From: Pseudoselenomonas ruminantium
GTDB taxonomy: Bacteria; Bacillota; Negativicutes; Selenomonadales; Selenomonadaceae
DNA length: 58,604 bases
Assembly (NCBI RefSeq): GCF_900113715.1
Contig: NZ_FOQK01000021.1
Coordinates: 1 to 58,604 of the forward strand
Reading direction: 5' to 3'
Shown here piece by piece: positions 4,948 to 32,422 of this stretch (position 1 is the first letter of the stretch; each line of letters opens with the position of its first letter). The position numbers and the translations under genes were made by a program. The notes beneath the pieces were generated by a model, which was given only the letters and a program-made list of their open reading frames with translations, was not told the DNA's origin and searched no databases.

Positions 4948-4966
4948 CGATCTACCCCCGATTATA

Positions 4967-5287
4967 TCATAGCGATTCCTCCATCAACTGGTGCAGTTTC
5001 TTGGCAAAGCCCGCATCCGTCAGCGCTGCTGCGGCGCGGTATTCCTTGCCGAGGCAGGTACCGAGCATCTCCCGGTCCAGCCCTTCTGCATAGGGAACCT
5101 TATATTTCTCAGCTAAACCTTTATAGGTCTTTTTCGATTCATCAGCAGCATCCGCCGCGACAAGCAGATATACTGCCTGCTTTTTCTTCATCGCCTGCTC
5201 GACAGCAAAGGCGCCGGAAACGATCCGGCGAGCCCGCTGGGCCATGCTCAGAAGATTCGTGATGCGCTGTTCTTTGGTAAATGCCAT
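4967..5287 (-). CDS. L7Ae-family ribosomal protein-like YlxQ
   Basis: A 106-residue member of the L7Ae/L30e/S12e kink-turn RNA-binding family, between the rnpM (ylxR) and infB genes as in Bacillus (where it is called YlxQ). Visible family features are [25 protein letters not shown] at the start and a hydrophobic strand [16 protein letters not shown] prefer the ATG at 5287, six bases after GAGGA, over the ATG at 5293 that overlaps the upstream stop. Its exact RNA target is not established. Confidence 0.85.
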
Positions 5288-5289
5288 GG

Positions 5290-5586
5290 TCATTCCTCTG
5301 TCTTCGCCGTCGCAGCCAGCGCTTGCAGCTGCTGCGCCAGCGCTTCGTAAACGGCAGGATCGATAGCATTCTTGAAGGAACGCTCGAGGCCCCGGCTTTT
5401 GCGGGCCGCCTCAAAGCATTCCTGTTTTGGACAGATATACGCGCCGCGGCCGGCTTTCTTGCCGGTGGTATCCACCGAATACTCGCCCTCCGGGCTGCGC
5501 ACGATACGGATCAGTTCCTTTTTCGGATGGCTTTCCTGGCAGCCCAGGCACATCCGCTGGGGAATTTTCCTCGTCTTCAAACTCAT
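5290..5586 (-). CDS. rnpM: YlxR/RnpM family RNA-binding protein (DUF448)
   Basis: A 98-residue protein with the YlxR signature: RMCLGCQESHPKKELIRIVR with two cysteines, then GRGAYICPKQECFEAARKSR with two more. YlxR proteins are small RNA-binding proteins; the Bacillus protein has been reported to interact with the RNase P RNA and named RnpM. The start ATG overlaps the nusA stop in an ATGA arrangement, and it is followed closely by the L7Ae-type gene. Role here is by family only. Confidence 0.88.
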   Translation of the reverse strand: MSLKTRKIPQRMCLGCQESHPKKELIRIVRSPEGEYSVDTTGKKAGRGAYICPKQECFEAARKSRGLERSFKNAIDPAVYEALAQQLQALAATAKTEE

Positions 5587-6725
5587 TCACCTTCTGCCGT
5601 GAAAGACTCGTCGCTCTCGACCTCGACCTCGTTCATGTTCTCGTCCAGCTGCTCTTCAGCGGCCTGCGACTCGCTCTTGATGTCGATCTTCCAGCTCGTC
5701 AGCTTTGCTGCCAGACGGGCATTCTGGCCTTCCTTGCCGATGGCCAGCGACAACTGGTAGTCCGGAACGACAACGCGGGAAACCTTCTCCTCTTCGTTGA
5801 CGGCCACCGAGACGACCTTGGCCGGGCTCAGTGCATTGGCGATGAACTTGGCCGGATCCTCGCTCCATTTGACGATATCGATTTTCTCGCTGCCGAGCTC
5901 GTCGACGATAGCCTGTACGCGCATGCCGCGATGGCCCACGCAAGAGCCAACCGGATCGACGGACTCGTCCTTCGACCAGACAGCAATCTTCGAGCGGTTG
6001 CCCGGCTCACGGGCCACCGACTTGATCTCGACGATGCCTTCCTGGATCTCCGGCACCTCAAGCTCGAAGAGGCGCTTCAAAAGGCCCGGATGGGTGCGGG
6101 AAACAACGATCTGCGGGCCCTTGTTCGTCTTCTTGACCTCGACGATGTAGGCCTTGATGCGGTCGCCGTGCTCATAGACTTCCGTCGGGATCTGCTCTGC
6201 CGGCGTCAGCACGGCCTCGGTCTTGCCCAGGTCGATGAACACATTGCGGTTCTCGACACGCTGGACAAGGCCCGTCAGGATATCGCTCTCGCGGCTCTGG
6301 AACTCCTCGTAGATGATGCCGCGCTCAGCCTCGCGGATACGCTGCACGACGACCTGTTTTGCCGTCTGGGCTGCGATGCGGCCGAAGTTGGCCGGCGTCA
6401 CTTCGATCTCGATGACATCGCCGACTTCGTACTCCGGACGGATCGTGCGGGCCTGAGCCAGCGAGATCTCCGTGATATCATCCTCGGTATCCTCGACAAC
6501 CGTCTTGATTGCGTATACGTGATAATGTCCCGTCTCACGTGAAAGCGTCACCCGGACATTCTGGGCCGAGCTGAAGTTGCGTTTGTAAGCGGAAATCAGC
6601 GCAGCCTCGATGGCCTCAAACAGCACCTCTTCGTCGATGCCTTTCTCCTTGCCCAGCTCGCGCAGGGTGTCCAGGAACTCCTGCCCATTGTCTCTAGCTT
6701 TCGCTTTCGTAGTTCTTCTTGCCAA
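5583..6725 (-). CDS. nusA: transcription termination/antitermination factor NusA
   Basis: NusA binds RNA polymerase and modulates pausing and termination. The 380-residue protein has the N-terminal polymerase-binding domain (residues 1-125), an S1 domain around SDILTGLVQRVENRNVFIDLGKTEAVLT, and two KH domains around DPVGSCVGHRGMRVQAIVDELG and QLSLAIGKEGQNARLAAKLT. It ends in a short acidic tail and lacks the extra acidic repeats of E. coli NusA, as in Firmicutes. The start is TTG, eight bases after GGGAGG. It overlaps rnpM by four bases. Confidence 0.96.
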   Translation of the reverse strand: MARRTTKAKARDNGQEFLDTLRELGKEKGIDEEVLFEAIEAALISAYKRNFSSAQNVRVTLSRETGHYHVYAIKTVVEDTEDDITEISLAQARTIRPEYEVGDVIEIEVTPANFGRIAAQTAKQVVVQRIREAERGIIYEEFQSRESDILTGLVQRVENRNVFIDLGKTEAVLTPAEQIPTEVYEHGDRIKAYIVEVKKTNKGPQIVVSRTHPGLLKRLFELEVPEIQEGIVEIKSVAREPGNRSKIAVWSKDESVDPVGSCVGHRGMRVQAIVDELGSEKIDIVKWSEDPAKFIANALSPAKVVSVAVNEEEKVSRVVVPDYQLSLAIGKEGQNARLAAKLTSWKIDIKSESQAAEEQLDENMNEVEVESDESFTAEGE

Positions 6726-6762
6726 AATCTTATCCTCCCAATTTTATATAAAGGCAACCGCC

Positions 6763-7218
6763 TTAAAAGTCGATATGCAGGCGAATCTGTGCCGCCTTGG
6801 AAAGCTCGATGACCGTCGTCTCATCCAGCGTGACCGCCTTGCCGTCAAAACCAGTGAGCACGCCGGTCCATTCCTTCTTGCCATCCATAGGAGCGTAAAG
6901 GGTAACATCTACCTTCTTGCCCTGCTCACGCTCGTAATCACGCGGCTTGCGCAGCACGCGGTCGATGCCTGGGGATGATACCTCCAGGATATAGCTGTCA
7001 GGAATCACATTCCGCTCATCCAGCTGTACCTCCAGCTTCTCGCTGAGTTCCTGACAATCCTCGATATCAATGCCACCGTCTTTATCGATGTAGACGCGCA
7101 AATACCAATCCGTGTGCTCCTTGACATACTCGACATCAACGAGTTCGATGACGTCCTGGCCTGCCAGCAGTTCGCTGACAATCTCCTCGACTGCTGCCTC
7201 GATATTCTTTGCTGCCAT
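6763..7218 (-). CDS. rimP: ribosome maturation factor RimP
   Basis: RimP assists assembly of the 30S subunit. The 151-residue protein shows the family's N-terminal alpha/beta domain (VELVDVEYVKEHTDWYLRVY), the conserved IDIEDCQELSEKLE, and the SPGIDRVLRKPRDYER segment before an SH3-like C-terminal domain. I place the start at the ATG at 7218 because GGAGG lies 6-10 bases before it; an in-frame ATG at 7233 lies upstream of that ribosome binding site. First gene of the operon. Confidence 0.93.
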   Translation of the reverse strand: MAAKNIEAAVEEIVSELLAGQDVIELVDVEYVKEHTDWYLRVYIDKDGGIDIEDCQELSEKLEVQLDERNVIPDSYILEVSSPGIDRVLRKPRDYEREQGKKVDVTLYAPMDGKKEWTGVLTGFDGKAVTLDETTVIELSKAAQIRLHIDF

Positions 7219-7254
7219 ACATCCACCTCCCATATTTTGCTTCCTACATAAGAA

Positions 7255-7284
7255 TTAAAGAGTGGGTTTGCACCCACTCTTTAA
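7255..7284 (-). promoter_or_regulatory. leader hairpin of the rimP-nusA operon
   Basis: A perfect 13-bp inverted repeat, TTAAAGAGTGGGT and ACCCACTCTTTAA, with a four-base loop, lies in the untranslated leader between the promoter at 7313-7341 and rimP. The minus-strand sequence after the stem is only moderately T-rich (TTCTTATG). It may be an attenuator; NusA is known to control its own operon through a leader terminator in Bacillus. Structure is seen, function inferred. Confidence 0.5.
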
Positions 7285-7312
7285 CGTAAGATAACTTAAA
7301 TTAACTTTGTTT

Positions 7313-9527: not shown

Positions 9528-10640
9528 TTACTCAAATACCGCTGCAATCATCGTCTGATTGAAATGCTGCTCATAGATCTGCTCACCATAGCCGCCCCAG
9601 CCGACATAGCTGCCCAGTGCCGTGCCCATGCTGCGGAAGAATTCATCCGCATAGCCCTCGCTCTCGAAGAGCAGCGTGCGCGCCAGGCAGTTGACCATGA
9701 TCGACAGCGACGGATGCGGCACTTCGCGCTGGATCTTCTGTATGGTCTCCCGGTTGACCTGACGATAGTCGTCCGGCTGCAGCATAACGATCTGGTCGTT
9801 CTCATAGATGCGCGCATGATATTTCATCGTCCGGCGGTCTGTATCCATGTCATCGTTGGCGATGATATACATATCCTTGCCGATGATGCGGCCCACCGGA
9901 TTGCTGTCGAGGAAGCTGCGGTCCATCTGCGAGGCCGACAGGCCATGCATCTTCGCTTCCATCTCCGATGCCGGGCAGCCATCATAGGCCATGACCTTGC
10001 GATGGAAAGCATCCACCGCAGTGGCCGTCAGCGGCTCGCAGATTGGCTTGTAGATATTCTCGCGGTAGAGATGGATGCTGCCGCCGAGGTTGCGGAGCAA
10101 CACGAACACGCTGGCCTTGTCATAAACCTTGCCGTTCAGCGATACCAGCGTCTTTTCGGCCAGGCCTCGGTCGCCAGCAGTGCCGCCGAAGACCGGGATG
10201 TTCTCCTTGCGCAGCACCGAGTTCAGCACTGCCAGCACCGACTCCTCGCAGGAAATCAGGCCATTGGTGGCCGTCAGGCAGATCGTATCATCGGCGCGGT
10301 GCGTCCCGAGCCTCCGGACTGCCTCCTGCACGCGGCCCACATATTTGAGCGGGCAGCGGTCGGCCTCCTCCAGCACATTGCCTACGCATTCGATGCCGCT
10401 TGCAATCGCCAGGACTTCCAGCGTGTCGTGGAAGATACCTGCCTGGGAAAAAGCGGCAATGGAAGTCGTCCCCATGACGATGCTCTGCGGGAACCGCGCC
10501 TGCATCTTGCTGGCGGTCTCAGCAAAAGCATCCACTGTCGTCGTGAACCAAACGAATTTTGCCTGCGTCATGCCCTGACACGCCCGCTCGATGGCATCAT
10601 CCACCGGCACGGCCTGACTGCGTCCAATCTTATACTCCAT
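9528..10640 (-). CDS. FIST domain sensory protein
   Basis: A 370-residue protein with FIST N and FIST C domains: the N-terminal half contains [13 protein letters not shown] and [10 protein letters not shown], and the C-terminal half contains [13 protein letters not shown]-like [22 protein letters not shown] followed by [25 protein letters not shown] proteins are presumed small-ligand sensors, often beside signalling genes. No membrane segment or signal peptide is visible. The ATG at 10640 is preceded by AAGGAG. It heads a two-gene operon with the soluble chemotaxis receptor. Confidence 0.88.
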
Positions 10641-10705
10641 ATTCTTCTCCTTGTCTCTTCCCTCTTCGCAAGGACTTACGTCCGTTTTAATCAATCTTTA
10701 ATTGA

Positions 10706-10735
10706 AGCATACTACGCCGAGTTTTTTCCTGTCAA
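10706..10735 (-). promoter_or_regulatory. promoter of the FIST-receptor operon
   Basis: Minus strand TTGACA (10735-10730), 18 bases, TATGCT (10711-10706), 66 bases before the FIST start. Between it and pcrA (10740-10895) I see only the pcrA terminator. Confidence 0.6.
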
Positions 10736-10830
10736 TTGTACAATACATGCGAAATGAAAAAATTTTCTGTTTTTTTGTCTTTTCCCCGCGGAACCCCGCG
10801 CCTGCTATGCATCCCGGCGCCAAAACACAC

Positions 10831-10872
10831 AAAAAAAATACCCGCTGCAGCTATACTGACCGCAGCGGATAC
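10831..10872 (-). terminator. terminator of pcrA
   Basis: Minus strand stem GTATCCGCTGC with GCAGCGGGTAT and a 13-base loop, followed by eight T residues. It lies 23 bases after the pcrA stop. Confidence 0.85.
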
Positions 10873-10894
10873 CTTCTGGAAATCCTGTATGATT

Positions 10895-13201
10895 TTATGC
10901 CTTGGTGATCGGCGCATATTTCTGCATGAGACCTTTGACCCCCTGGCCAGGGAAGGCGATCTTGAGCTCGACCTCTTCGCCGCTGCCTTTGACCGATACG
11001 ACGGTGCCGACGCCCCATTTGCCATGGCGCGCCTTGTCGCCGACCTTCCACTGGATGCTCGTGTCCGGACGGATGACGCCGCCGCTGGGCTGGACGTTGA
11101 CGTTCTTCTTCTGCAGGGCTGCCATGGCCTCAAGGGCGGACTGGGGCTTGCCACTGAAATGCACGCCATTGCCCATCTGGCTCGCGCTGGGGCGGAAGCT
11201 CATGAAGCCGCTCTGCTGCTGGGCACCATAATGGTTCGCGTTGGCAAAGCCATAGGCATTGGCCCGCGGCACGAGGCGCTCGACGTAGTCATCGGGGATC
11301 TCCTGCAGGAAGCGCGACGGCGGGAACGCATTCGTCTTGCCGTAGATCGTGCGCTGGCGGGCATTCGTCAGATAGAGCTTGCGCTGGGCACGCGTGATGC
11401 CGACGTAGCAGGTACGGCGCTCCTCCTCGATCTCGTTGTCATCCATCAGCGTACGGGAGTGCGGGAACAGCCCCTCCTCCATGCCAATCATGAACACCAC
11501 GGGGAACTCCAGGCCTTTTGCCGAGTGGAGAGTCATCAGCGTCACGCGGTCATCCTCGATATCGGCATTGTCGATATCGGAAACCAGCGAGAGCTGCGAC
11601 AGGAAGGTTTCAAGATTGGCATTTTCCTCGGTCTTCTCGAAGTCCCTGGCCACACCGATGAACTCCTTGAGGTTTTCGATGCGCGACTCGCTCTCGGGCT
11701 TGTTCTCTGCCTTGAGCTCAGCCAGATACCCCGACTCATCCAGTACTTTCTCGATAAGGTCATCCAGATGCATATTGTTCTGATAGCCCATGAACTGGAA
11801 GACAAAGGTCGAAAAGAGCTCCAGCGGCTTCTTGATGCGGGCCGTGATGCCGGGGATCGTGTCGAGCACCTCAGCATTCGAGATGACATCGAACAGCGAC
11901 AGGCCGTTCTCATCGGCATAATCCGTGAGCTTCGCCAGCGAAGTGGCACCGAGGCCGCGCTTGGGGACATTGATGATGCGCAGGAGGCTCACGGTGTCCA
12001 GCGGATTATAGATGACGCGCAGGTAGGCAAGGATGTCCTTGATTTCCTTGCGGTCGTAGAACTTGAGGCCGCCGACCATCGTATACGGGATGCCTGCGCG
12101 CATGAACGTTTCCTCGATGACGCGGGACTGGGCATTCGTGCGGTAAAGGATGGCCATATCGCCATAGGAAGCATTGAAGATGGTCTTCTGCTTGGAAATC
12201 GTGGTGGCGATGAACTGCGCCTCGTCGCGCTCGTCACGGGCCTCGTAGCTCGTGAGCTTCTCCCCTGTCGCATTCTCCGTCCAGAGGTCCTTCTTCTTGC
12301 GGTTGACGTTATGCTCGATGACTGCATTGGCCGCCGCGAGAATGTTCTTCGTCGAGCGGTAATTCTGCTCGAGCTTGATGGTCTTGGCCTCGGGGTAGTC
12401 CTGCTCGAAATCCATGATGTTGCGGATATCGGCACCGCGCCAACCGTAAATGGACTGGTCGGCATCACCGACGACGCAGAGATTGTGGTGCTGGGCCGCC
12501 AGGATCTTCGTCAGCTGGTACTGGGCGCCATTGGTATCCTGATACTCATCCACGAGGATGTATTTGAACCGGCGCTGATACTTCGTGCGGATTTCCTCGT
12601 TCTCTTCGAGCAGGATGACCGAAACCATCAGCAGATCATCAAAGTCCAGCGCATTGTTCGTGCGCAGCTTCTGTGCATAGAGCTTGTAGACCTCAGCGAC
12701 CTTCTTCTGGAAGAAGTTATCGGCATCGCGCTCCATGGCCTTGGGGCCCATGAGCTGGTTCTTGGCATTCGATATGGCATTCTGGATCGAGTTGGGCGCG
12801 TACTGTTTCGGGTCGAGGTTGAGCTCCTTAAGACAGTCCTTGATGACAACCTGGCTGTCGCTGGAATCATAGATGACAAAGTTTTTCTTGTAAAGGTCTG
12901 TTGCCTCGATCTCGCGGCGCAGGAACCGCGCACAAAACGAATGGAACGTACTGAGCCAGACATCCTTCGCGCCCTCACCGATCATGCGGTCCACGCGCTC
13001 GCGCATCTCCGTGGCCGCCTTGTTCGTAAACGTGATGGCAAGGATATTCCACGGTGCCACCCCCTGCGCCAAAAGATTGGCAATCTTGCAGGTCAGCACC
13101 TTCGTCTTTCCGGAGCCGGCACCTGCCATTATGAGCAGCGGGCCGTCCGTATGCTCCACGGCTTTCTTCTGGGCGGGATTCAAACCTTCAAAAATATCCA
13201 A
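10895..13201 (-). CDS. pcrA: ATP-dependent DNA helicase PcrA/UvrD
   Basis: A superfamily 1A helicase of 768 residues that unwinds DNA in repair and removes RecA. Motifs in order: the Q-motif region LNPAQKKAVEH, Walker A MAGAGSGKTKVL, Walker B VDEYQDTN, VVGDADQSIYGWRGAD (motif III), and EQNYRSTKNIL (motif IV), then VTLMTLHSAKGLEFPVVFM (motif V) and TCYVGITRAQRKLYL (motif VI). A C-terminal Tudor-like segment ends WKVGDKARHGKWGVGTVVSV, usual for PcrA. The start is TTG at 13201 with AGGAGG seven bases upstream; the ATG-like extension upstream lacks a site. Confidence 0.96.
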   Translation of the reverse strand: MDIFEGLNPAQKKAVEHTDGPLLIMAGAGSGKTKVLTCKIANLLAQGVAPWNILAITFTNKAATEMRERVDRMIGEGAKDVWLSTFHSFCARFLRREIEATDLYKKNFVIYDSSDSQVVIKDCLKELNLDPKQYAPNSIQNAISNAKNQLMGPKAMERDADNFFQKKVAEVYKLYAQKLRTNNALDFDDLLMVSVILLEENEEIRTKYQRRFKYILVDEYQDTNGAQYQLTKILAAQHHNLCVVGDADQSIYGWRGADIRNIMDFEQDYPEAKTIKLEQNYRSTKNILAAANAVIEHNVNRKKKDLWTENATGEKLTSYEARDERDEAQFIATTISKQKTIFNASYGDMAILYRTNAQSRVIEETFMRAGIPYTMVGGLKFYDRKEIKDILAYLRVIYNPLDTVSLLRIINVPKRGLGATSLAKLTDYADENGLSLFDVISNAEVLDTIPGITARIKKPLELFSTFVFQFMGYQNNMHLDDLIEKVLDESGYLAELKAENKPESESRIENLKEFIGVARDFEKTEENANLETFLSQLSLVSDIDNADIEDDRVTLMTLHSAKGLEFPVVFMIGMEEGLFPHSRTLMDDNEIEEERRTCYVGITRAQRKLYLTNARQRTIYGKTNAFPPSRFLQEIPDDYVERLVPRANAYGFANANHYGAQQQSGFMSFRPSASQMGNGVHFSGKPQSALEAMAALQKKNVNVQPSGGVIRPDTSIQWKVGDKARHGKWGVGTVVSVKGSGEEVELKIAFPGQGVKGLMQKYAPITKA

Positions 13202-20108: not shown

Positions 20109-21368
20109 TCAGTCAACCAGCACCGGATTCTCTACGACCTTCCAGGGCAGGCCCCATTTGTTGAGGGCTTCCATATACGGGTCGGGATCGAACTCATCGG
20201 TGGTAAATACGCCCGGCTTCTTCCACTGGCCGGTCACGACGAGCATCGCACCGATCATCGCCGGCACGCCCGTGGTATAGGAGATGGCCTGGGAGCCAAC
20301 TTCCTTAAAGCACTCCTGATGATCGCAGACGTTATAGATGTAGATGGAGCGCTCCTTGCCATCCTTCTTGCCCGTGAAGATGCAGCCGATATTCGTCTTG
20401 CCCTTCGTGCGCGGGCCCAGGGACGCCGGATCCGGCAACAGTGCCTTCAAGAACTGGATCGGCACGATTTCCTGCCCGTTGTAGTTTATCGGCGTCGTCG
20501 AAAGCATGCCGACGTTTTCGAGGCAGCGCATATGGTCCAGATAGCTCTGGCCAAAGGTCATGAAGAAGCGGATGCGCTTGACCTCTGGCATGTTGCGGCC
20601 CAGGGCTTCGATTTCCTCATGATGCAGCAGGTACATATCCTTCTTGCCCACGCCCTCGAAGTCGTATTCCCGCTTGATGCTCATAGCGGGGATCTCGATC
20701 CACTTGCCGTTTTCCATATAGGAGCCCGGTGCCGAGACCTCACGCAGGTTGATCTCGGGATTGAAGTTCGTGGCAAAGGCATAGCCATGGTCGCCGCCAT
20801 TGCAGTCGAGGATATCGATGGTGTCGATGGTATCGAAGTAATGTTTCTTGGCATAGGCCGCAAAGACCGACGTGACGCCCGGGTCAAAGCCCGTGCCCAA
20901 AAGGGCCGTAAGGCCGGCCTGTTTGAACTTGTCCTCATAGGCCCACTGCCACGAATAGTCAAAGTAAGCCGAGAAGCCCAGCTCCTTGCAGCGCTTGTCG
21001 TAAATCTTGCGCCACTCGGGGTCTTCGGTGTCCTCGGGCTCGAAGTTCGCCGTATCGATGTAGTCGACACCAGCTGCCAGGCAGGCATCCATGATCGTGA
21101 GGTCCTGATACGGCAGCGCCACATTCAGGACGGCATCGGGCTGGTACTCCTTGATGAGTTTCGTCAAGGCTTCGGCATCATCGGCATCGATCTGCGCCGT
21201 CGTGATCTTCGTCTTCGTCTGGCCCTGCAGTTTCTCCTTCAGGGCATCGCACTTGGACACCGTGCGGCTGGCAATCAGCAGTTCATCGAAAACGCCATCG
21301 TTCTGGCACACCTTATGGATGGCAACACTTGCCACACCGCCACAGCCGATAATCATCAATTTGCTCAT
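20109..21368 (-). CDS. carboxynorspermidine/carboxyspermidine synthase
   Basis: A saccharopine-dehydrogenase-like enzyme of 419 residues that condenses putrescine (or diaminopropane) with aspartate semialdehyde using NADPH. The Rossmann fold starts MSKLMIIGCGGVASVAIHKV, followed by IASRTVSKCDALKEKL and the DTANFEPEDTEDPEW segment typical of this subgroup. It lies between speE and nspC. The preferred amine cannot be read from sequence; putrescine is likely because the operon makes it. Confidence 0.92.
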   Translation of the reverse strand: MSKLMIIGCGGVASVAIHKVCQNDGVFDELLIASRTVSKCDALKEKLQGQTKTKITTAQIDADDAEALTKLIKEYQPDAVLNVALPYQDLTIMDACLAAGVDYIDTANFEPEDTEDPEWRKIYDKRCKELGFSAYFDYSWQWAYEDKFKQAGLTALLGTGFDPGVTSVFAAYAKKHYFDTIDTIDILDCNGGDHGYAFATNFNPEINLREVSAPGSYMENGKWIEIPAMSIKREYDFEGVGKKDMYLLHHEEIEALGRNMPEVKRIRFFMTFGQSYLDHMRCLENVGMLSTTPINYNGQEIVPIQFLKALLPDPASLGPRTKGKTNIGCIFTGKKDGKERSIYIYNVCDHQECFKEVGSQAISYTTGVPAMIGAMLVVTGQWKKPGVFTTDEFDPDPYMEALNKWGLPWKVVENPVLVD

Positions 21369-22225
21369 TTTCTCGTCTCCTCCTCTGACAGGATATCCTC
21401 TACGTACTTGGGCAGCATGAAGGCGCCCTTATGCAAATGGGTGGTATAATACCAAGTCTTCAATTCGCGCTTGTTCCAGCGCTTGGCATCGAAATCCTTG
21501 AGCGGATGGTATTTCTTCGATGCAAAGCCGAACATCCAGATACCTGCCGGGCAGGTCGGGATGCTGGCCTGATAGACGCGGCTCACCGGGAAGCTCTGAT
21601 AGGCCTTGCGGTGCATTGCGCGGAACGCCGCCTCATCCTCATCGTAGAAGGGACTGCCGTGCTGATAGACCATGATGCCATCATCATGCAGTGCCCGGTA
21701 ACAGTTGCCATAGAACTCCCGCGTGAACAGCCCCTCGGTATGGCCGAAGGGATCGGTAGAATCGTTGATGATGAGGTCGTATTTGTCACGGCAGCGGCGC
21801 AGGAAGCGCAGGCCGTCCATATTCGTGATCTTGACGCGTGCATCATCAAAGCCCTTGGCCGTCTCAGGGAAAAATTCCCGGGACACCTCGATGAACATCT
21901 CATCGGGCTCGACCACATCGATGGACTCGATCTCGGGATACTGTGTGAGCACCTTGGCCACACCGCCATCGCCACCGCCGATAATCAGTACATTCCTGAC
22001 CTCGGGATGGACGGCCATGGGCACGTGCACCACCATTTCGTTATAGATGAATTCGTCGGCCTCCGAGAAGATGATTTCGCCGTCCAGCACAATCATGCGG
22101 CCGAATTCGTTGGACTCAAAGACATCGATCCGCTGATACTCGCTCTGCTTGGAGAACAGCTGTCTATCCACGCGCACGGAAGTCTTGACGTTTTCCGTAT
22201 CCATCTGTGAAAACCATATTTCCAT
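21365..22225 (-). CDS. speE: polyamine aminopropyltransferase (spermidine synthase)
   Basis: Transfers an aminopropyl group from decarboxylated S-adenosylmethionine to putrescine. The 286-residue protein has the usual N-terminal beta domain, the nucleotide-binding VLIIGGGDGGVAKVLTQYP, EPDEMFIEVSREFFP, and the catalytic IINDSTDPFGHTEGLF. Overlaps the next gene by four bases. No S-adenosylmethionine decarboxylase gene lies in the window, so the source of the aminopropyl donor is not shown. A cluster of palindromes separates it from speA. Confidence 0.93.
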   Translation of the reverse strand: MEIWFSQMDTENVKTSVRVDRQLFSKQSEYQRIDVFESNEFGRMIVLDGEIIFSEADEFIYNEMVVHVPMAVHPEVRNVLIIGGGDGGVAKVLTQYPEIESIDVVEPDEMFIEVSREFFPETAKGFDDARVKITNMDGLRFLRRCRDKYDLIINDSTDPFGHTEGLFTREFYGNCYRALHDDGIMVYQHGSPFYDEDEAAFRAMHRKAYQSFPVSRVYQASIPTCPAGIWMFGFASKKYHPLKDFDAKRWNKRELKTWYYTTHLHKGAFMLPKYVEDILSEEETRK

Positions 22226-22244
22226 TGCTTCGGTTCCTCCCCTG

Positions 22245-22295
22245 TTGACAAGTCAAAGTGACCGGTCAACTTGACATGTCAGGCTGACTTGTCAA
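22245..22295. repeat. cluster of four TTGAC-NN-GTCAA palindromes between speA and speE
   Basis: Four copies in 51 bases: TTGACAAGTCAA at 22245, TGACCGGTCA at 22259, TTGACATGTCA at 22271 and TGACTTGTCAA at 22285; the last overlaps the speA stop codon. The same palindrome recurs at 7352, 16861/16875, 32450, 33008 and 51874/51886. It could fold in the transcript as internal hairpins or bind a protein. Confidence 0.7.
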
Positions 22296-23746
22296 GTTTC
22301 CGTCAAAATGCGCAGTTCCCGGCACTCCGGGTCCTGCGTTCCCTGCAGGGAACAGCCTTTTTCCCGCGCGTATTCGATATAGGTAAGTATCTCTTCGGTG
22401 ATGCGCTCGCCCGGCGTCAGTATGGGGATGCCCGGCGGATAGCACATGAGCATCTCCCCCGAGATGCGGCCCACCGTATCCTTCAGCGGCAGGCGCTCAC
22501 CCTTGGCGTAGAAGGCCTCCTTGGGGCTCATGACGAGCTCGGGGGCGATAAACTCACCGCAGTAGAGCTCGCGCTTGTCCTTGGCGAAGCGGCCCGCGAT
22601 ATCCTCGAGCGCGCCGACAAGGCGCTCGATATCGCGGATGCGGTCGCCAATCGAGATGTAGGCCAGGATATTACCGATATCGCCGAACTCGATCTGGATG
22701 TCATACTCATCGCGCAGCATATCGTAGACCTCGATGCCCGTCATACCGATGCCCTGCGTGAAAACCGACAGCTTCGTCACATCGAAGTCATAGACGCTGT
22801 CGCCGTCGATGAGCTCACGGCCATAGGCATAGAACCCGCCGATCTCGTTGATTTCCGACCGGGCATACTCGGCCATGGAGCTGACCTTCTCGAAGGCCTC
22901 GCAGCCATGCAGGGCAAGGTTGCGGCGTGAGAGGTCAAGGCTCGAGATCAGGAGATACGAAGCACTGGTCGTCTGGGTGAGGTTGATGATCTGCTGCACA
23001 TACTCGGCATCGACGCCCTCACCGCAGAGCAGGATGGAGCTCTGGGTCAGGCTGCCGCCTGACTTGTGCATCGACACAGCAGCCAGGTCGCCGCCAGCTG
23101 CCATGCCCGAAATCGGCAGGTTCTTGCCGAAGTAGAGATGGGTGCCATGGGCCTCGTCGACCAGCACCTTCATGCCTGCCGCATGGGCGGCACGCACGAT
23201 GCCCTTGAGGTCCGAGGCAATGCCGTAATAGGTCGGATTGTTGACAAAGATGGCCTTGGCCCGCGGATGCTCGCGGATGGCCTTTTCCACGTCACTGAGG
23301 GCCATGCCCGTCGCGATGCCGATCTGATGATTGACGCGCACAGGCACATAGACCGGGATGCCGCCGCAGAGCACCAGCGCATTGATGACGCTCTTGTGCA
23401 CGTTGCGCGGCAGCAGTATCTCGTCGCCAGCGCGCACTGTCGCCAGCACCATCGCCTGCACGGCCGAGGTCGTGCCGTTGACCATAAAGAACGCATGCTG
23501 CGCACCAAAAGCATCCGCGGTAAGCTCCTCGGCCTCGCGGATGACAGATATCGGGTGGCTTAAATTGTCGAGCATCTTCATCGAGTTGACATCGACCCCT
23601 ACGCATTTCTCACCCAAAAAATCGAGCAGCTCCGGATTGCCGCGCCCACGCTTATGCCCGGGCACATCAAAAGGAACCACCCGCCGCTTGCGCAGTTCGA
23701 GCAGTGCCTCATAAACCGGAGCCGTATGCTGATTGATTCGATCCAT
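22292..23746 (-). CDS. speA: Orn/Lys/Arg-family decarboxylase, probable arginine decarboxylase
   Basis: A fold-I PLP decarboxylase of 484 residues, the short form lacking the N-terminal wing domain, as in Bacillus SpeA. It has VPGHKRGRGNPELLDFLG at the start, the aspartate/histidine motif VDEAHGTHLYFGK and the PLP lysine in VSMHKSGGSLTQSSILL. Arginine is the likely substrate because agmatine-processing genes follow in the same operon, but lysine or ornithine cannot be excluded by motif alone. The ATG at 23746 has AGAAGG upstream; first gene of the polyamine operon. Confidence 0.88.
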   Translation of the reverse strand: MDRINQHTAPVYEALLELRKRRVVPFDVPGHKRGRGNPELLDFLGEKCVGVDVNSMKMLDNLSHPISVIREAEELTADAFGAQHAFFMVNGTTSAVQAMVLATVRAGDEILLPRNVHKSVINALVLCGGIPVYVPVRVNHQIGIATGMALSDVEKAIREHPRAKAIFVNNPTYYGIASDLKGIVRAAHAAGMKVLVDEAHGTHLYFGKNLPISGMAAGGDLAAVSMHKSGGSLTQSSILLCGEGVDAEYVQQIINLTQTTSASYLLISSLDLSRRNLALHGCEAFEKVSSMAEYARSEINEIGGFYAYGRELIDGDSVYDFDVTKLSVFTQGIGMTGIEVYDMLRDEYDIQIEFGDIGNILAYISIGDRIRDIERLVGALEDIAGRFAKDKRELYCGEFIAPELVMSPKEAFYAKGERLPLKDTVGRISGEMLMCYPPGIPILTPGERITEEILTYIEYAREKGCSLQGTQDPECRELRILTET

Positions 23747-23807
23747 GTACCTTCTTCCCTTTGATTGCGAAATATCTAACAATTATCACTAATATTGCTA
23801 CTTATAA

Positions 23808-25478: not shown

Positions 25479-26798
25479 TCACTTTGCCAGACAAATACGG
25501 TATAAACCGGCCGCAATGACAACCGTCACGATATCGGCCGCCAGCTGAGCGGCAATGACGCCCGTATAGCCAAACCACAAGGGCAGGACAGCTAGTGCCA
25601 GAGCATAGACGATACCCTGCCGGCAAAGGGACAGCATAAGCGCGGGCAGCCCCTTGCCTGTGGCCTGGAACGTGCAGATGAGCACCAGGCCGATGCCCAT
25701 GAAGATAATGGCCGGCAGCTGCCAGTAAAGCATCGTAACCCCCTGCTCGATAAGCGCCGGCTGCGCGAGGAAAACATGCACGACCGGCCGGGCAAAAAAC
25801 GCGAGTCCCAAAGCCAGCACTACGCTTGTCCCGATTACGGCCTGCAAAGCAAAGGCAATGACCTTTTTCATGCGCGCTTTGTCCTTAGCGCCATAGGTAT
25901 AACCGATAAGCGGCTGCCCGCCGAAAGCCAGCCCCACGATCACCAGAGCCACAATCATGATGATTTTCATGACGATGCCCATGACGGCAATCGCTTCACT
26001 GCCATAGGGCAGCAGGCTGCGGTTCGTCAGGGCAATGCCAAAAGTCTGCGTAAAATTCGTCACAGCTGCTGCCAGGCCAATCGAAAATATACCAGCCACC
26101 TCGTGCCAGCTGATGCGCAGTGCTGGCAAATCAAGCGAAAGCTCTGCGCAATGACGGCGGATATAGCACACGGCATAGATATCCGCACAGATATAGCCCA
26201 GTACCGTTGCCAGCGCCGCACCAGCTGCGCCAAGCTCAAGCCCGAAAATCAGCACAGGGTCCAGCGCGATATTGACAGCGGCACCGAGGATGGAAGCATT
26301 CATCGAGATTTTCGGGCAGCCGGCCGTACGTAAGAGATTCGTCGGCACCAGTGAGAAAATCACAAACGGTGCGCCAGCGATAAACCACGAATAATATGCC
26401 GCCGCATACGGTATGACCTCTCCCTTCGCCCCCAGGAGCGCCAGCATCGGTTCGCGCAGGGATAGCAGTACGCTTGCTGCCACGATGCCAAAGCCGATTG
26501 ACCCATAAAAGCAGAAAATACTTAGCCGTTTGCCATCCGCCTTGCGCCCAGCGCCAAAGAGCCGCGCAATCACCGAGCTGCCGCCAAGGCCAAACAGGTC
26601 GCCAAAGGCCAGCAGCAGCGTAAAGAGCGGCGTACAGACCGATATGCCCGCAATCAAGGCCGTGTCCCCCGTCAAGGCGATAAAGAACGTATCGGCCATG
26701 CTGTAGACGAGCTGCACCACCATGCTCATGACGACGGGCAGGGCCAGCGTCATATACGCCTTCGGTATCGGTGTCCTGGCAAACAATTCATCGGTCAT
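25479..26798 (-). CDS. MATE family efflux transporter
   Basis: A 439-residue, twelve-helix MATE antiporter in the inner membrane, with the paired-repeat MATE organisation (PVVMSMVVQLVYSMADTFFI near the N-terminus; FGIALTNRSLLPYGSEAIAVMG in the second half). MATE proteins exchange Na+ or H+ for cationic compounds. The ATG at 26798 has GGGAGG upstream. The leader (26813-26915) has a hairpin followed by T-rich sequence and a conserved-looking upstream fold, suggesting riboswitch control; if it is the guanidine-IV (mepA) class the exported compound would be guanidinium or a relative. Confidence 0.9.
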   Translation of the reverse strand: MTDELFARTPIPKAYMTLALPVVMSMVVQLVYSMADTFFIALTGDTALIAGISVCTPLFTLLLAFGDLFGLGGSSVIARLFGAGRKADGKRLSIFCFYGSIGFGIVAASVLLSLREPMLALLGAKGEVIPYAAAYYSWFIAGAPFVIFSLVPTNLLRTAGCPKISMNASILGAAVNIALDPVLIFGLELGAAGAALATVLGYICADIYAVCYIRRHCAELSLDLPALRISWHEVAGIFSIGLAAAVTNFTQTFGIALTNRSLLPYGSEAIAVMGIVMKIIMIVALVIVGLAFGGQPLIGYTYGAKDKARMKKVIAFALQAVIGTSVVLALGLAFFARPVVHVFLAQPALIEQGVTMLYWQLPAIIFMGIGLVLICTFQATGKGLPALMLSLCRQGIVYALALAVLPLWFGYTGVIAAQLAADIVTVVIAAGLYRICLAK

Positions 26799-26812
26799 AA
26801 AAAATTCCTCCC

Positions 26813-26915
26813 TAAAACAAAAAGACATCCATAACCCGCAATTGCCGGATTATGGATGTCCTTACCGTAGCGGTTTCCCGCCCTACTATCTCATTTATCT
26901 ATACGATTATATGTT
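26813..26915 (-). promoter_or_regulatory. riboswitch-like leader of the MATE gene (possible guanidine-IV/mepA class)
   Basis: On the minus strand a hairpin GTA-GG-GCGG-GAAA-CCGC-TAC (about 26865-26888) is followed by CGGTAAG and then a strong terminator stem, GACATCCATAA... paired with TTATGGATGTC (26824-26860), ending in TTTTTGTTTT, all upstream of the start codon. A terminator before a coding region implies conditional read-through. Assignment to the mepA/guanidine-IV class rests on the downstream MATE gene and my recollection of the motif, not on a search. Confidence 0.55.
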
Positions 26916-26982: not shown

Positions 26983-29682
26983 TCAGCCCCTTCTCTGTTC
27001 CGCATGGCTTTTATATGCCGCTATCCGCCTGGCGACGTTATCCTTGATGTTGTAGTAATAAAGGGCATAGTCGCCATTGTGGTAACTGGCAGGGCCGAAA
27101 ACCGTAATGCCGAACATTTCATATATGGGCTTCATGGCATTGGTCTTCGTTATTACAACGCCCCGCTTCAAATCCAGCCGGGCATCGGCAGCTTTTGGAA
27201 CCTGCTCGATTTTTCCGGTTGCTTCGTTATAGATGTAACCGCCGAGGTTTTCCGCTGCCGGCGCATAGGTTTCATCCCGCTTCCAGTTCAATGGATTGAT
27301 GCTGATTGCGCCTGGCAGGACCACGAGGTTTTTCTTGCCGGCATTGGCCGGTCCCTCGGTATTCCACGAGACGATAACGCCGGTATCATCGGCTCTTTCC
27401 GCAAAATGCAGGTGCGGATTTGCCTGAAGATACTCCTTAGTAATCGAAAAACCAATGACATACGCGGCGATCATGCGCTGCTGATACTCTGGATGCGCCT
27501 TCATGTATTCTGCCAGCACAAGGCTCTGCATCGCCGAGCCCTGCGAGTGTCCTGCGAGAATAAAGGGCCTGCCGCCATTCAGATTGGCAAAGTAGTAGTC
27601 AAGGGCGGCAAAGACATCCTGTTTGGGAACGTTGTTGAAGGCCGCGCGCAACGCTTCGGGCGTCATTTCGCTGGCGGCCGCCATATTGACCTGCCGGTAA
27701 TACGGGACAAACACATTGGTAGCGTCTGCATAAGCCGTTCCCTGCAGCAGATACGTTTCCTGCGCAGGCTCCCGCATGGCTTTTTCATTGATGTCAGCAA
27801 AGACCGGCGCGCCTGCCGAATCGTCAGCATATTCCGTAGGATAGATATATATAGTGTCTACGTCCTTTGTGATTTTTGGCTGCTTCATCCAGTTGTTCTT
27901 ATCGGCATAATCGACCGGTGCCGCAGCTGGATTCGCAAAAACTTTTTTGCCCTCGAAATAGGTTGCCTCGGGTCTGGCCTTATGGATATCTGTCACCGGG
28001 CAAGTCAGCACATCCTTGTCGACGAGGAGAAAATCTGCATATTTGCCCTTGGTGATACTGCCTCTTTCCTTCTCAAGAAACATCTGCTTGGCGCAGTTGA
28101 TAGTCAAAGCCGTCAGTGCCTGCTCACGGGTCAGCAGCTCTTCCGGCCACCAGGGTTTTGACTTCTCAGGGTAATAGGCACCAGTCACTGTAATCTCCAT
28201 AATGCCAAACGGATCATCGGGACTAGCAGCGAGAGCCGGAAAATCCGAGTGTGAGGACATGTTTATCCCATAATCGAAATAAGATTTCATCGGATACCCC
28301 TTGTCCCCCATGCCTGCGGGAAGGCTGCGCAATAAATCAGGCAGTGACGCATCCGCCGTGTGGTGCCAAAGCAAACCAGCGGTGACCTGTATGTTATGTC
28401 TTGCCATCCGCTCGTAATCCGGCAGATTGACGTTGCGCAGATGCACCAGCGTATTGCGCATTTCATCCTTTCCCCCATTGACGAAGGCGTTTATGGTACG
28501 ATGGACTGCCTGATTGCCCAGTGCATGCACGTGCATGGTCAAACCATTTTCATTCGCCTTGCGCGTAATGCGGGTAAATTCATCTTCCGTCCAGTTGACC
28601 AGCCCTTGATGCCCATCCGTATATGGCGGATCGATAAAGCCGGTTCCGCTTTCCACGGTACCGTCCATGTAAAATTTCAGCCAGTTTGTCTTTACATGCT
28701 TGGACGCATATTTTTGGGCTTCAACCGCCTTGGCCAGTTCTGCATCCACATCCATCCAGCTTTCGATTTCATAGGCGGTGCCCAGCACAAAATGCATAGT
28801 TCCGGCCTTGTCCATCTCACTGGCGGCCTTATACAGGTTATTGTTGCGGAAATACGAAGAATACCCATCGAGATACATCGTATATCCTTCTGACAACAAG
28901 GTATCCTGAACCTTGCGCAAGGTTGTCCTGGCTCTGTCAGCCGTAAAGAGGTTGTCGCCGTCCAGGAATGACCTTACATAAGTGGCTGCCTGCTCCTTCA
29001 GATAGCCTGTAGGCGTGCCGTCAGCTCCCATCACAATCTCGCCGCCTCTTATGTCATTTTCCTTTTTCAGTACAGTGCCATCTTCCTTCATAATGCCTGC
29101 ATGGACCAGGGAAAGCGTATTCACCAGGCTCTTATGGCCTTCCTCATCGATAAAGAATACCGGCAGATCCTTGCAGACCGCATCGATCTGTTGACGGGTA
29201 GGCATATTGCCCTTGAAAGTATCGAGGTTCCACCCTAAACCGAAAACAGCCTTTAAGTTTGCAGCCTTGGCCTTCTTGACAGCCGCGGGAAGGATTTCTG
29301 TCAAGAACTTGTTTGCATCATCACTATCGCCAACCTGCGCTCCGATTTCGATCATGGCATAAGCTATCGGATAATGGGCATGCCCGTTGCCGCAGCCAGG
29401 CATCACAAGCCCCTTGTCCGTATAGTCCACCACATCGGTCCTTCCTGCTTCGACCAGTGCGGCAGCGCCTTTCTTATCGCCTACATAGATGTATTTGCCA
29501 TCCTTCACGGCAAAAGCCTCTGCCACCTTGTTGTTATCCGAAGTGAATATCTTGCCATAAACCACGAGGTCAGCCTTCGTCTTTTCGCTGCCACTGGCCA
29601 GCCCGCCAGCTCCGAGCATAAAGCTTAATACCACGATGCCTGCCAAAAGCTTCATGATACGCATGCGCATCATTTGCCTCAT
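26983..29682 (-). CDS. secreted amidohydrolase fused to a DUF3089 alpha/beta hydrolase
   Basis: An 899-residue exported protein. Residues 1-35 form a signal peptide (LLAGIVVLSFMLGAGGLASG). Residues about 38-580 are an amidohydrolase of the YtcJ/N-substituted formamide deformylase type, with metal ligands in GNGHAHYPIAY, HVHALGNQAVHR and MSSHSDFPALA. Residues about 592-899 are a DUF3089 lipase-like domain with the nucleophile elbow ILAGHSQGSAMQ near residue 711. These domains normally occur in separate proteins. AAGGAG precedes the first ATG. It would act in the periplasm or outside; the substrate is unknown. The upstream neighbour is a broken carboxylesterase. Confidence 0.85.
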   Translation of the reverse strand: MRQMMRMRIMKLLAGIVVLSFMLGAGGLASGSEKTKADLVVYGKIFTSDNNKVAEAFAVKDGKYIYVGDKKGAAALVEAGRTDVVDYTDKGLVMPGCGNGHAHYPIAYAMIEIGAQVGDSDDANKFLTEILPAAVKKAKAANLKAVFGLGWNLDTFKGNMPTRQQIDAVCKDLPVFFIDEEGHKSLVNTLSLVHAGIMKEDGTVLKKENDIRGGEIVMGADGTPTGYLKEQAATYVRSFLDGDNLFTADRARTTLRKVQDTLLSEGYTMYLDGYSSYFRNNNLYKAASEMDKAGTMHFVLGTAYEIESWMDVDAELAKAVEAQKYASKHVKTNWLKFYMDGTVESGTGFIDPPYTDGHQGLVNWTEDEFTRITRKANENGLTMHVHALGNQAVHRTINAFVNGGKDEMRNTLVHLRNVNLPDYERMARHNIQVTAGLLWHHTADASLPDLLRSLPAGMGDKGYPMKSYFDYGINMSSHSDFPALAASPDDPFGIMEITVTGAYYPEKSKPWWPEELLTREQALTALTINCAKQMFLEKERGSITKGKYADFLLVDKDVLTCPVTDIHKARPEATYFEGKKVFANPAAAPVDYADKNNWMKQPKITKDVDTIYIYPTEYADDSAGAPVFADINEKAMREPAQETYLLQGTAYADATNVFVPYYRQVNMAAASEMTPEALRAAFNNVPKQDVFAALDYYFANLNGGRPFILAGHSQGSAMQSLVLAEYMKAHPEYQQRMIAAYVIGFSITKEYLQANPHLHFAERADDTGVIVSWNTEGPANAGKKNLVVLPGAISINPLNWKRDETYAPAAENLGGYIYNEATGKIEQVPKAADARLDLKRGVVITKTNAMKPIYEMFGITVFGPASYHNGDYALYYYNIKDNVARRIAAYKSHAEQRRG

Positions 29683-29710
29683 GATAGTTCTCCTTTCCGA
29701 GTCTTACCGG

Positions 29711-30947
<1,237 letters not shown>

Positions 30948-31045
30948 AAAAAAACCTCCCTTGCTCTGCAAAATCTTCTTTGTCTACGCTTGTATTCGCG
31001 TCCGACAAGGAAAAGTCCTGCCAAGGGAGGCCCAACGATATTTTC

Positions 31046-32257
31046 TTAGGTATTTGCCGTCTTGACGGCGGCAGCTGCACGACTGCCATGCAGTTTCAGC
31101 ACCGCGGCCAGCAGGAAGTTCAGCACGAAGCAGCCGGCAAAGAACAGCAGCGTCGCCGAATAACTATGCGTATGCTCCCAGAACCACGAGACGATGGTCG
31201 GACCGGCCACGCCAGCCATGCCCCAGGCCGTCAGCACGCGGCCGTGGATCGCGCTTAGCTCCCGCGTGCCGAAGATATCGGCAAGATAAGCCGGCATGCA
31301 CGAAAAGCCGCCACCATAGCAGCTGATGATCAAAAACACGAGCAGCTGGAACGCCAGCGCATCGCTTGTGCCCGCCAACAAGTAAAAAGCACCGGCCTCC
31401 AGCGCGAAAAAGGCCATATAGGTAAGCCCGCGCCCCAAATAATCCGAAAGCGTCGACCAGACAATGCGCCCGCCGCCATTTACGAGCCCGATGAGGCCGA
31501 CCATCGACGCCGCCTGGGCCGCATCCATGCCCGCGGCCTGCTGGGCCATCGGCGAAGCCACTGCCAGCAGACCGATGCCGCAAGTGATATTGACAAAGAA
31601 CACCCACCAGAGCATGCCAAACGGCCAGGTCCTCACAGCCTCAGCAGCCGTGGCGCCATGCTGGATCTGCGTGACCTTTGCCGTGCCAGCTGGCTGCACG
31701 GGCGGCTTCAGATAAAGCGCTGACGCCCCCATCAGCAGCATGTAGGCTGCGCCCAGCAGCAGGAAAGTATCCACAAGGCCGGCTTTTGCCGTCAGCGCCT
31801 GCATGACAGGGCCGGCAATCAGCGCGGCAAAGCCGAAGCCCATGATGGCAAGCCCCGTCGCAAAGCCGCGGTGCTGCGGGAAATACTTGACAAGCGTCGA
31901 TACCGGCGTGATATAGCCGACACCAAGGCCGATGCCGCCGATGACACCATAGAAAAGATACAAGAGCAGCAAGCTGTGCAAGTGCAGCGCCAGCGCTGTA
32001 CCGAACATGCCCGTGCCAAAAAACAGCATGGCCAGCAGCCCGCTCTTCTTCGGCCCATGTTTTTCCACAAACCGGCCCAAGAAACCTGCCGACATGCCAA
32101 GGAACAGGATTGCCAGAGAAAAGGTCCACGTCGTCTCCGCCAGCGTGAATCCCAGTTCCGCCATGATGGGGCGCGTCAGGACACTCCAGGCATAGACGCT
32201 GCCGATGGAAATATGGATTCCCACCGCAGCCAACGCAATGAGCCAACGATTCCGCAT
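31046..32257 (-). CDS. MFS transporter, OxlT-like
   Basis: A 403-residue, twelve-helix major facilitator of the oxalate/formate antiporter-like group, starting MRNRWLIALAAVGIHISIGSVYAWSVLTRP, with GFLGRFVEKHGPKKSG between helices 2 and 3 and GGGRIVWSTLSDYLGR in the second half. The substrate is likely a small carboxylate. A ZTP riboswitch in its leader links it to one-carbon/purine metabolism, which would favour formate or a related folate-pathway precursor; this is inference. The start is chosen after AAAGGA. Confidence 0.88.
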   Translation of the reverse strand: MRNRWLIALAAVGIHISIGSVYAWSVLTRPIMAELGFTLAETTWTFSLAILFLGMSAGFLGRFVEKHGPKKSGLLAMLFFGTGMFGTALALHLHSLLLLYLFYGVIGGIGLGVGYITPVSTLVKYFPQHRGFATGLAIMGFGFAALIAGPVMQALTAKAGLVDTFLLLGAAYMLLMGASALYLKPPVQPAGTAKVTQIQHGATAAEAVRTWPFGMLWWVFFVNITCGIGLLAVASPMAQQAAGMDAAQAASMVGLIGLVNGGGRIVWSTLSDYLGRGLTYMAFFALEAGAFYLLAGTSDALAFQLLVFLIISCYGGGFSCMPAYLADIFGTRELSAIHGRVLTAWGMAGVAGPTIVSWFWEHTHSYSATLLFFAGCFVLNFLLAAVLKLHGSRAAAAVKTANT

Positions 32258-32312
32258 GAAAACCATCCTTTCTGCTGCCTGCGCAGCAACGAGAAAAAGA
32301 GCTTTCATCCAA

Positions 32313-32422
32313 ACAAAAAACCGTCTGGACAAAAACTCTCTGCCCAGACGGTCGGCTTGTTAAACCTTGCAGTACATGTGGTCGATTCCACTAATCCGTC
32401 AGTCCTGCACGGCATTATCGAC
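32313..32422 (-). ncRNA. ZTP (pfl) riboswitch with intrinsic terminator
   Basis: Minus strand sequence shows the pfl-motif pieces in order: GGACTGACGG, AGTGGAATCGACCAC, CTGCAAGG and GCCGACCGTCTGGGCAG, the last matching the conserved GCCGMCCGCCTGGGC end. The CCGTCTGGGCA block also forms the 5' arm of a terminator (CCGTCTGG...CCAGACGG, then TTTTTTG, 32314-32351). Ligand binding would hold this block in the aptamer and prevent termination, an ON switch for the MFS gene. ZTP riboswitches sense ZMP/ZTP, signals of low 10-formyltetrahydrofolate. Confidence 0.8.

Follow-up and report, generated by a model that had tools for sequence, protein, structure and literature searches.

We identified, in the window (the whole stretch of 58,604 nucleotides that was analyzed), a single gene predicted to encode an exported protein that joins an amidohydrolase to a DUF3089 alpha/beta-hydrolase, and we found that these two modules, together with type-B carboxylesterases, are fused and clustered in varied orders in other bacteria. 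Based on sequence features and on analogy with characterized relatives, the protein is probably an exported amidase-esterase that deconjugates small acyl or aryl conjugates. Hereafter, AH refers to the Amidohydro_3 module, DUF to the DUF3089 module and COE to the type-B carboxylesterase. The gene and its surroundings present the following features:

26983..29682, minus strand: whole gene, predicted exported amidohydrolase-DUF3089 fusion, 899 aa (ORF list and translation)
29690..29696, minus strand: Shine-Dalgarno-like AAAGGAG upstream of the ATG (read directly)
29593..29682, minus strand: hydrophobic N-terminus, approximately residues 1-30, probable Sec signal peptide (sequence by eye; low-confidence helix in the model)
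27934..29583, minus strand: Amidohydro_3 module, residues 34-583 (Pfam, alignment, structure match)
27925..27933, minus strand: short inter-module junction, residues 584-586 (NPA), approximate boundary from reference cuts
26986..27924, minus strand: DUF3089 alpha/beta-hydrolase module, residues 587-899 (Pfam, conserved residues, structure match)
29711..30631, minus strand: type-B carboxylesterase remnant directly upstream of the fusion (Pfam and comparison with relatives)
26821..26863, minus strand: terminator-like hairpin of 18 pairs with a T run, between the fusion gene and the MATE gene
25479..26828, minus strand: MATE-family transporter gene, next downstream, context only (MatE, E = 1.2e-43)

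The gene is open in a single frame with zero internal stops, and its ATG (29680-29682) lies seven bases downstream of the AAAGGAG motif. The Pfam profiles, the uninterrupted frame and the hydrophobic N-terminus bear out the first-pass annotation of this DNA, which described an exported chain with an amidohydrolase followed by a DUF3089 domain. A search of its own genome with the fusion protein returned one match, and NCBIfam yielded weak partial matches only, below the cut-offs. The AlphaFold2 model of the full fusion reached a mean pLDDT of 89.9 and a pTM of 0.77; the 50 matches listed from a structure search with this model all concern the AH half.

The AH module spans most of the Amidohydro_3 profile (PF07969; E = 5.7e-51; residues 91-582; profile positions 8-472 of 472; 174.9 bits relative to a cut-off of 29.7). 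It is predicted to hold a binuclear metal site formed by H101, H103, K336, H386, H414 and D480. These candidate ligands, and likewise H183, were invariant across 20 aligned amidohydrolases (20/20). The alignments comprised 66 rows (A1; the window and 65 of the 96 listed candidates) or chosen sets of 19 and 20 rows (A2 and A3). We distinguished a close subfamily (AH1; >50% identical to the window; n = 62 fetched copies) from a distant one (AH2; ~30% identical to the window AH; n = 24). All 62 AH1 copies kept K336, H386, H414, D480, H183, E344 and H440, while H101 and H103 were found in 59, the remaining three presenting no aligned residue at these positions. E181 was conserved in 61/62 and H441 in 59/62 of the AH1 copies. 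Because E181 and H440 are each kept in just three of the 24 AH2 copies, these two residues mark AH1; E344, carried by 15 AH2 copies, is less specific to this subfamily. The modeled AH half superimposed on 3igh with a Z-score of 41.9 (rmsd 3.8 over 473 residues; VIA-align), and 3icj was also matched (Z ~42). The amidohydrolase superfamily also includes deaminases, lactonases and esterases, and the label of amidase is therefore uncertain.

The second half of the protein covers the entire DUF3089 profile (PF11288; E = 5.2e-42; residues 608-803; profile positions 1-207 of 207; 144.2 bits relative to a cut-off of 23.4). The motif GHSQG is found at residues 711-715, and S713 is the predicted nucleophile of GHSQGS. 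S713, D833 and H868 were kept in all 38 DUF3089 copies (38/38), and D833 and H868 are the probable triad partners of this serine, with the caveat that more than one conserved Asp is a candidate and that the Asp-His spacing is 35 in the window versus 15 in MGS0012 as described in PMC5341072. A model of the DUF alone (pLDDT 79.6) found alpha/beta hydrolases as its best Foldseek matches (best E = 5.1e-5; TM ~0.28); searching PDB sequences with the DUF half returned nothing useful. The active sites of both modules look intact. The presence of two hydrolytic centers in one exported chain, as initially proposed, is thus predicted from the profiles, the conserved residues and the confident model of the full protein.

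The carboxylesterase remnant upstream of the fusion consists of approximately residues 154-240 joined to approximately residues 389-521 of intact relatives, which corresponds to an in-frame internal deletion. It lacks the N-terminal region as well as some 150 internal residues, which leaves the catalytic domain incomplete. The second part shares 68-72% identity with most of the intact copies that gave the better matches, and the two pieces are the sole PF00135 matches in the genome. The locus thus resembles what is left of a COE-AH-DUF set. The remnant ORF overlaps a nitroreductase gene (30375-30971) in a different frame. On the other side, the fusion is separated from its MATE neighbor by the terminator-like hairpin; 16 such sites were found in the region versus 6.6 expected. 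Farther away, we observed a ZMP/ZTP riboswitch (32335-32416, minus strand; 57.1 bits, gathering threshold 39) directly upstream of an MFS gene (31046-32332); its 3' end forms a terminator-like hairpin, and a transporter target is noteworthy. The window also contains a polyamine-type gene run (20109-23782, minus strand) with an Orn/Lys/Arg decarboxylase, a spermidine synthase and a saccharopine-dehydrogenase-like gene.

We then considered whether the two genes might have been joined by an assembly or frameshift artefact, since the first-pass annotation would have withdrawn the fusion had it been unique to this assembly. The search, run at set E-values, covered 189 genomes of the window's family (20 regions mapped), 180 genomes of the order Synergistales (20 regions mapped) and, from the family to which a Prevotellaceae MAG belongs, 399 genomes, of which 15 gave a match at E ≤ 1e-80. 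Fused and adjacent AH/DUF3089 pairs were both found in other genomes. A Synergistaceae MAG from goat reticulum (L036) has a 1205-aa ORF with the architecture AH-DUF-DUF and, after it, a gene for a carboxylesterase. In a genome of the Prevotellaceae-MAG family (L150), an AH-DUF protein of 895 aa (9737-12424, plus strand) belongs to the gene run AH, AH, AH-DUF, COE. These two genomes lie outside the window's family and carry the same architecture with full domains, and the junction sequences of the window and L036 are alike. In the remaining regions mapped for the window's family, AH and DUF3089 are separate neighbors, which would fit an artefact, but the fusions of L036 and L150 argue strongly against it, and we regard this explanation as extremely improbable. 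Additional fusions had been suggested in the window's own family by open-frame lengths; the gene maps resolved them as separate neighboring ORFs, and they were not counted. Across 380 genomes of the window's class (E = 1e-60), the close-subfamily AH among the matches listed all belonged to the window's family.

The fusion belongs to a broader series. We mapped every ORF of at least 70 aa in 53 stretches (the window, L036, L037 and 50 other regions) and found 17 ORFs with at least two modules in 14 genomes, which are lower bounds that concern the fetched regions only. These ORFs combine only AH, DUF3089 and COE, in eight arrangements:

AH-DUF: window, L127, L150
AH-DUF-DUF: L036
DUF-AH: L120
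DUF-AH-COE: L119 (1400 aa)
AH-COE: L121, L122, L123, L124, L125, L126
COE-DUF: L129
DUF-DUF: L084, L121, L128
DUF-DUF-DUF: L126

Pfam confirmed the modules in all 14 of the 17 fused ORFs that were scanned, a set that leaves aside the AH-COE of L124, L125 and L126. The AH of the L127 fusion is of the distant subfamily. By match boundaries, the junctions measure 0 to 22 residues, with the exception of COE-DUF, where the COE reference match ends early. Unmatched stretches of at least 90 residues correspond to COE ends only (L119 and L126), and Pfam COesterase continues into the unmatched end of L119. One ORF of L155 (1128-3020), with about 40 residues of an AH end before a COE, matched COesterase only in Pfam and was excluded from the fusion count. 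Judged from these matches, AH, DUF3089 and COE form a modular set whose members are fused in many different orders, and frequently lie close together as genes, in three separate lineages. Two particular architectures were also observed. L126 encodes three tandem DUF3089 domains in one 971-aa protein (4382-7297, minus strand). The carboxylesterase of L036 (5246-7216) and its relatives (L127 13337-15313; L091 13674-15677) carry an extra N-terminal stretch of ~120-157 residues, which in L036 appears by eye to be membrane-spanning.

The same modules are frequent neighbors when they are not fused. AH and DUF3089 genes are adjacent on the same strand in 11/20 regions of the window's family, i.e., all 11 holding DUF3089 (gaps of 3-483 bp), and in 2/20 Synergistales regions (gaps of -23 to 483 bp across both groups); the regions were chosen for AH or DUF3089 matches, many of them for long open frames, so that this adjacency is partly selected. 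In raw counts, COE genes were found in 12/20 regions of the window's family, 11/20 of Synergistales and 5/10 of the Prevotellaceae family (6/10 with a contig-end fragment). Proteins of the choloylglycine-hydrolase kind (BLAST with one query; raw counts) were detected in 10/20 Synergistales regions, 3/20 of the window's family and 0/10 of the Prevotellaceae family. Two of these predicted amide hydrolases were scanned (Pfam E = 1.7e-7 and 4.4e-5); a search of the window's genome returned no match to the choloylglycine family. Response regulators and histidine kinases occur in eight loci each (one of each was scanned with Pfam), AraC-type regulators precede AH genes in L150, L151 and L155, and L150 contains a MATE pump and L119 an RND pump. 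These efflux and regulator neighbors vary from locus to locus. We also noticed that a protein of 215-234 aa containing hydrophobic stretches recurs among the loci (L081 14007-14654, with relatives in L083, L084, L093, L127 and L134); the one scanned was without Pfam match, and five of the six loci contain carboxylesterase genes.

We further analyzed the history of the modules with trees limited to stretches above length cut-offs. In the DUF tree (35 of the 38 copies), the modules of the window and L150 and the first copy of L036 fall on one side of a branch with moderate, unstarred support (88/81), and this branch sits in a starred group of six rows with three stand-alone genes. The AH trees rejected the grouping of the window with L036 (p-AU = 7.6e-68) and with L150 (p-AU = 7.25e-58), values to be read with caution given the long branch of the window AH (0.42) and a test that shares the model's pull. 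A single ancestral AH-DUF fusion inherited whole by the window, L036 and L150 is unsupported by the AH trees. The DUF halves group, whereas the AH half of the window groups with neither that of L036 nor that of L150, which suggests that the modules were re-paired; the plain reading is that DUF modules of one kind became attached to AH modules of distinct lineages, or that the AH halves were swapped. The L150 fusion has a close counterpart in L152 (110-1915, minus strand; genome G870), whose AH presents 98.3% DNA identity over 1755 columns. In the frame of L152, the linker runs straight into the last DUF3089 residues, with no DUF core in between; the middle amidohydrolase gene of L150 is likewise missing from L152. 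Because the DUF end is retained, a loss in G870 is more probable than a gain in the L150 genome (G673). The AH frame is open without the DUF core, suggesting that the AH is independent of its partner.

Two precedents led us to the proposed combination of amide and ester deconjugation. BwBSH1, the metalloBSH of Bilophila wadsworthia, is an exported Amidohydro_3 protein with an extra C-terminal domain and cleaves taurine conjugates (PMC13081902), and Est10, a DUF3089 enzyme from bovine rumen, cleaves C4 and aryl esters, with no long-chain activity detected in the assays described (PMC4431682). By this analogy, the targets would be small acyl or aryl conjugates outside the membrane, with the metal site hydrolyzing an amide or amide-like bond and the serine site cutting an ester bond. 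The DUF3089 module had initially been called lipase-like; the family assignment holds, but an esterase-like activity fits Est10 better. Fusion would hold two or three bond-cutting activities together, in a fixed ratio, on one pool of related compounds. In view of the regulators and efflux pumps found nearby in some loci, the enzyme probably serves to release nutrients from diet- or host-derived conjugates or to detoxify them.

The first-pass annotation also proposed that both centers attack one substrate in sequence, for example an acylated or esterified amide. What our results support, and only indirectly, is a shared substrate class, since these three kinds of hydrolase module recur in fusions and clusters of varied order; a sequential attack on a single molecule would go beyond this. 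The missing DUF core of L152 and the decayed COE of the window show that a locus can do without one of the three modules. Both modules might instead be active on unrelated substrates, the fusion securing joint export and equal amounts of scavenging enzymes. Each module is also common in stand-alone form, the AH of L152 persists as an open frame, and Est10 was active on all esters of the library tested (PMC4431682), all of which agree with this alternative; the recurrence of fusions and clusters among the same three modules, and the further predicted amide hydrolase beside them in half of the Synergistales regions, make it doubtful in our opinion. We consider it less likely still that only one module is catalytic and the other a binding or stabilizing helper, a role that the C-terminal domain of BwBSH1 may have: deleting that domain cost ~4-fold in activity (PMC13081902), but here both modules retain their catalytic residues in the copies examined.

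A more specific alternative is that the fusion is itself a bile salt hydrolase of the metalloBSH kind that releases taurine. Such a function would be consistent with the shared Pfam family, the similar size, the predicted export, the same ligand pattern and the choloylglycine-type hydrolases near relatives of the fusion. However, the sulfonate contacts reported for BwBSH1 are replaced at the three positions that could be placed (S194 by E181, Q381 by E344 and N443 by L388, placed by their offset from conserved residues with the positions given in PMC13081902), and the window's own genome is without a choloylglycine hydrolase match. Position 388 is L or M in 62/62 AH1 copies, and the counterpart of H544 could be placed by spacing only with uncertainty. 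The catalytic His196 corresponds to H183 (placed by motif), which is kept in 62/62 AH1 and 24/24 AH2 copies and is thus unspecific to metalloBSH. With Glu, Glu and Leu at the contact positions, a role on taurine bile salts is very unlikely; as a speculation, the acidic E181 and E344 might instead suit a cationic group.

Returning to the amidase-esterase that we favor, these results tentatively suggest a larger picture, in which a mobile set of AH, DUF3089 and COE modules, fused, duplicated, reordered and lost across three lineages, would equip each bacterium with its own tailored, exported multi-hydrolase; the target would be one class of conjugates that bear ester and amide bonds, perhaps those of plant phenolics or amines. 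The choloylglycine-type amidase would then be a frequent partner gene in Synergistales, and E181 and E344 could hold a cationic group. To our knowledge, the natural substrates of the Amidohydro_3, DUF3089 and COE families are mostly unknown. The repeated fusion in varied orders represents a strong functional linkage and offers a handle, namely a compound that bears an ester as well as an amide. Hydrolase domains have thereby been mixed across distant bacteria, including one sampled from a goat fore-stomach, and the L150/L152 pair constitutes a natural with/without comparison for the DUF3089 core. In the literature that we searched, with few subscription journals covered, we saw no description of such a fusion, and DUF3089 was paired with amidohydrolases in other contexts only. 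The component families are already known.

Compared with known systems, the AH half shares a nearly full profile with the Amidohydro_3/YtcJ-like amidohydrolases. It has the fold and the six metal-ligand positions of the metal-dependent hydrolases 3igh and 3icj (both titled uncharacterized) but is only ~21% identical to them, predicted to be exported, fused to DUF3089 and endowed with its own E181, E344 and H440. A functional parallel is BwBSH1 (945 aa versus 899 aa for the window fusion), which is predicted to use two metal ions and, like the set described here, combines an exported Amidohydro_3 with an additional C-terminal domain and adjacent paralogues (PMC13081902). The terms DUF and esterase are absent from the main text of that article. 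Type-B carboxylesterases (PF00135) provide the third module of the set, of which the window's genome has a fragment only. Finally, the DUF3089 or family XV esterases Est10, Est5S (92% identical to Est10; PMC4431682) and MGS0012 have PF11288 and the GXSXG motif in common with the window, and Est10 also carries a signal peptide. In the portions available of their descriptions, Est10 and MGS0012 are presented as single enzymes, and PMC5341072 and PMC11878206 treat DUF3089 proteins in the same manner, whereas the DUF3089 of the window is joined to an amidohydrolase.
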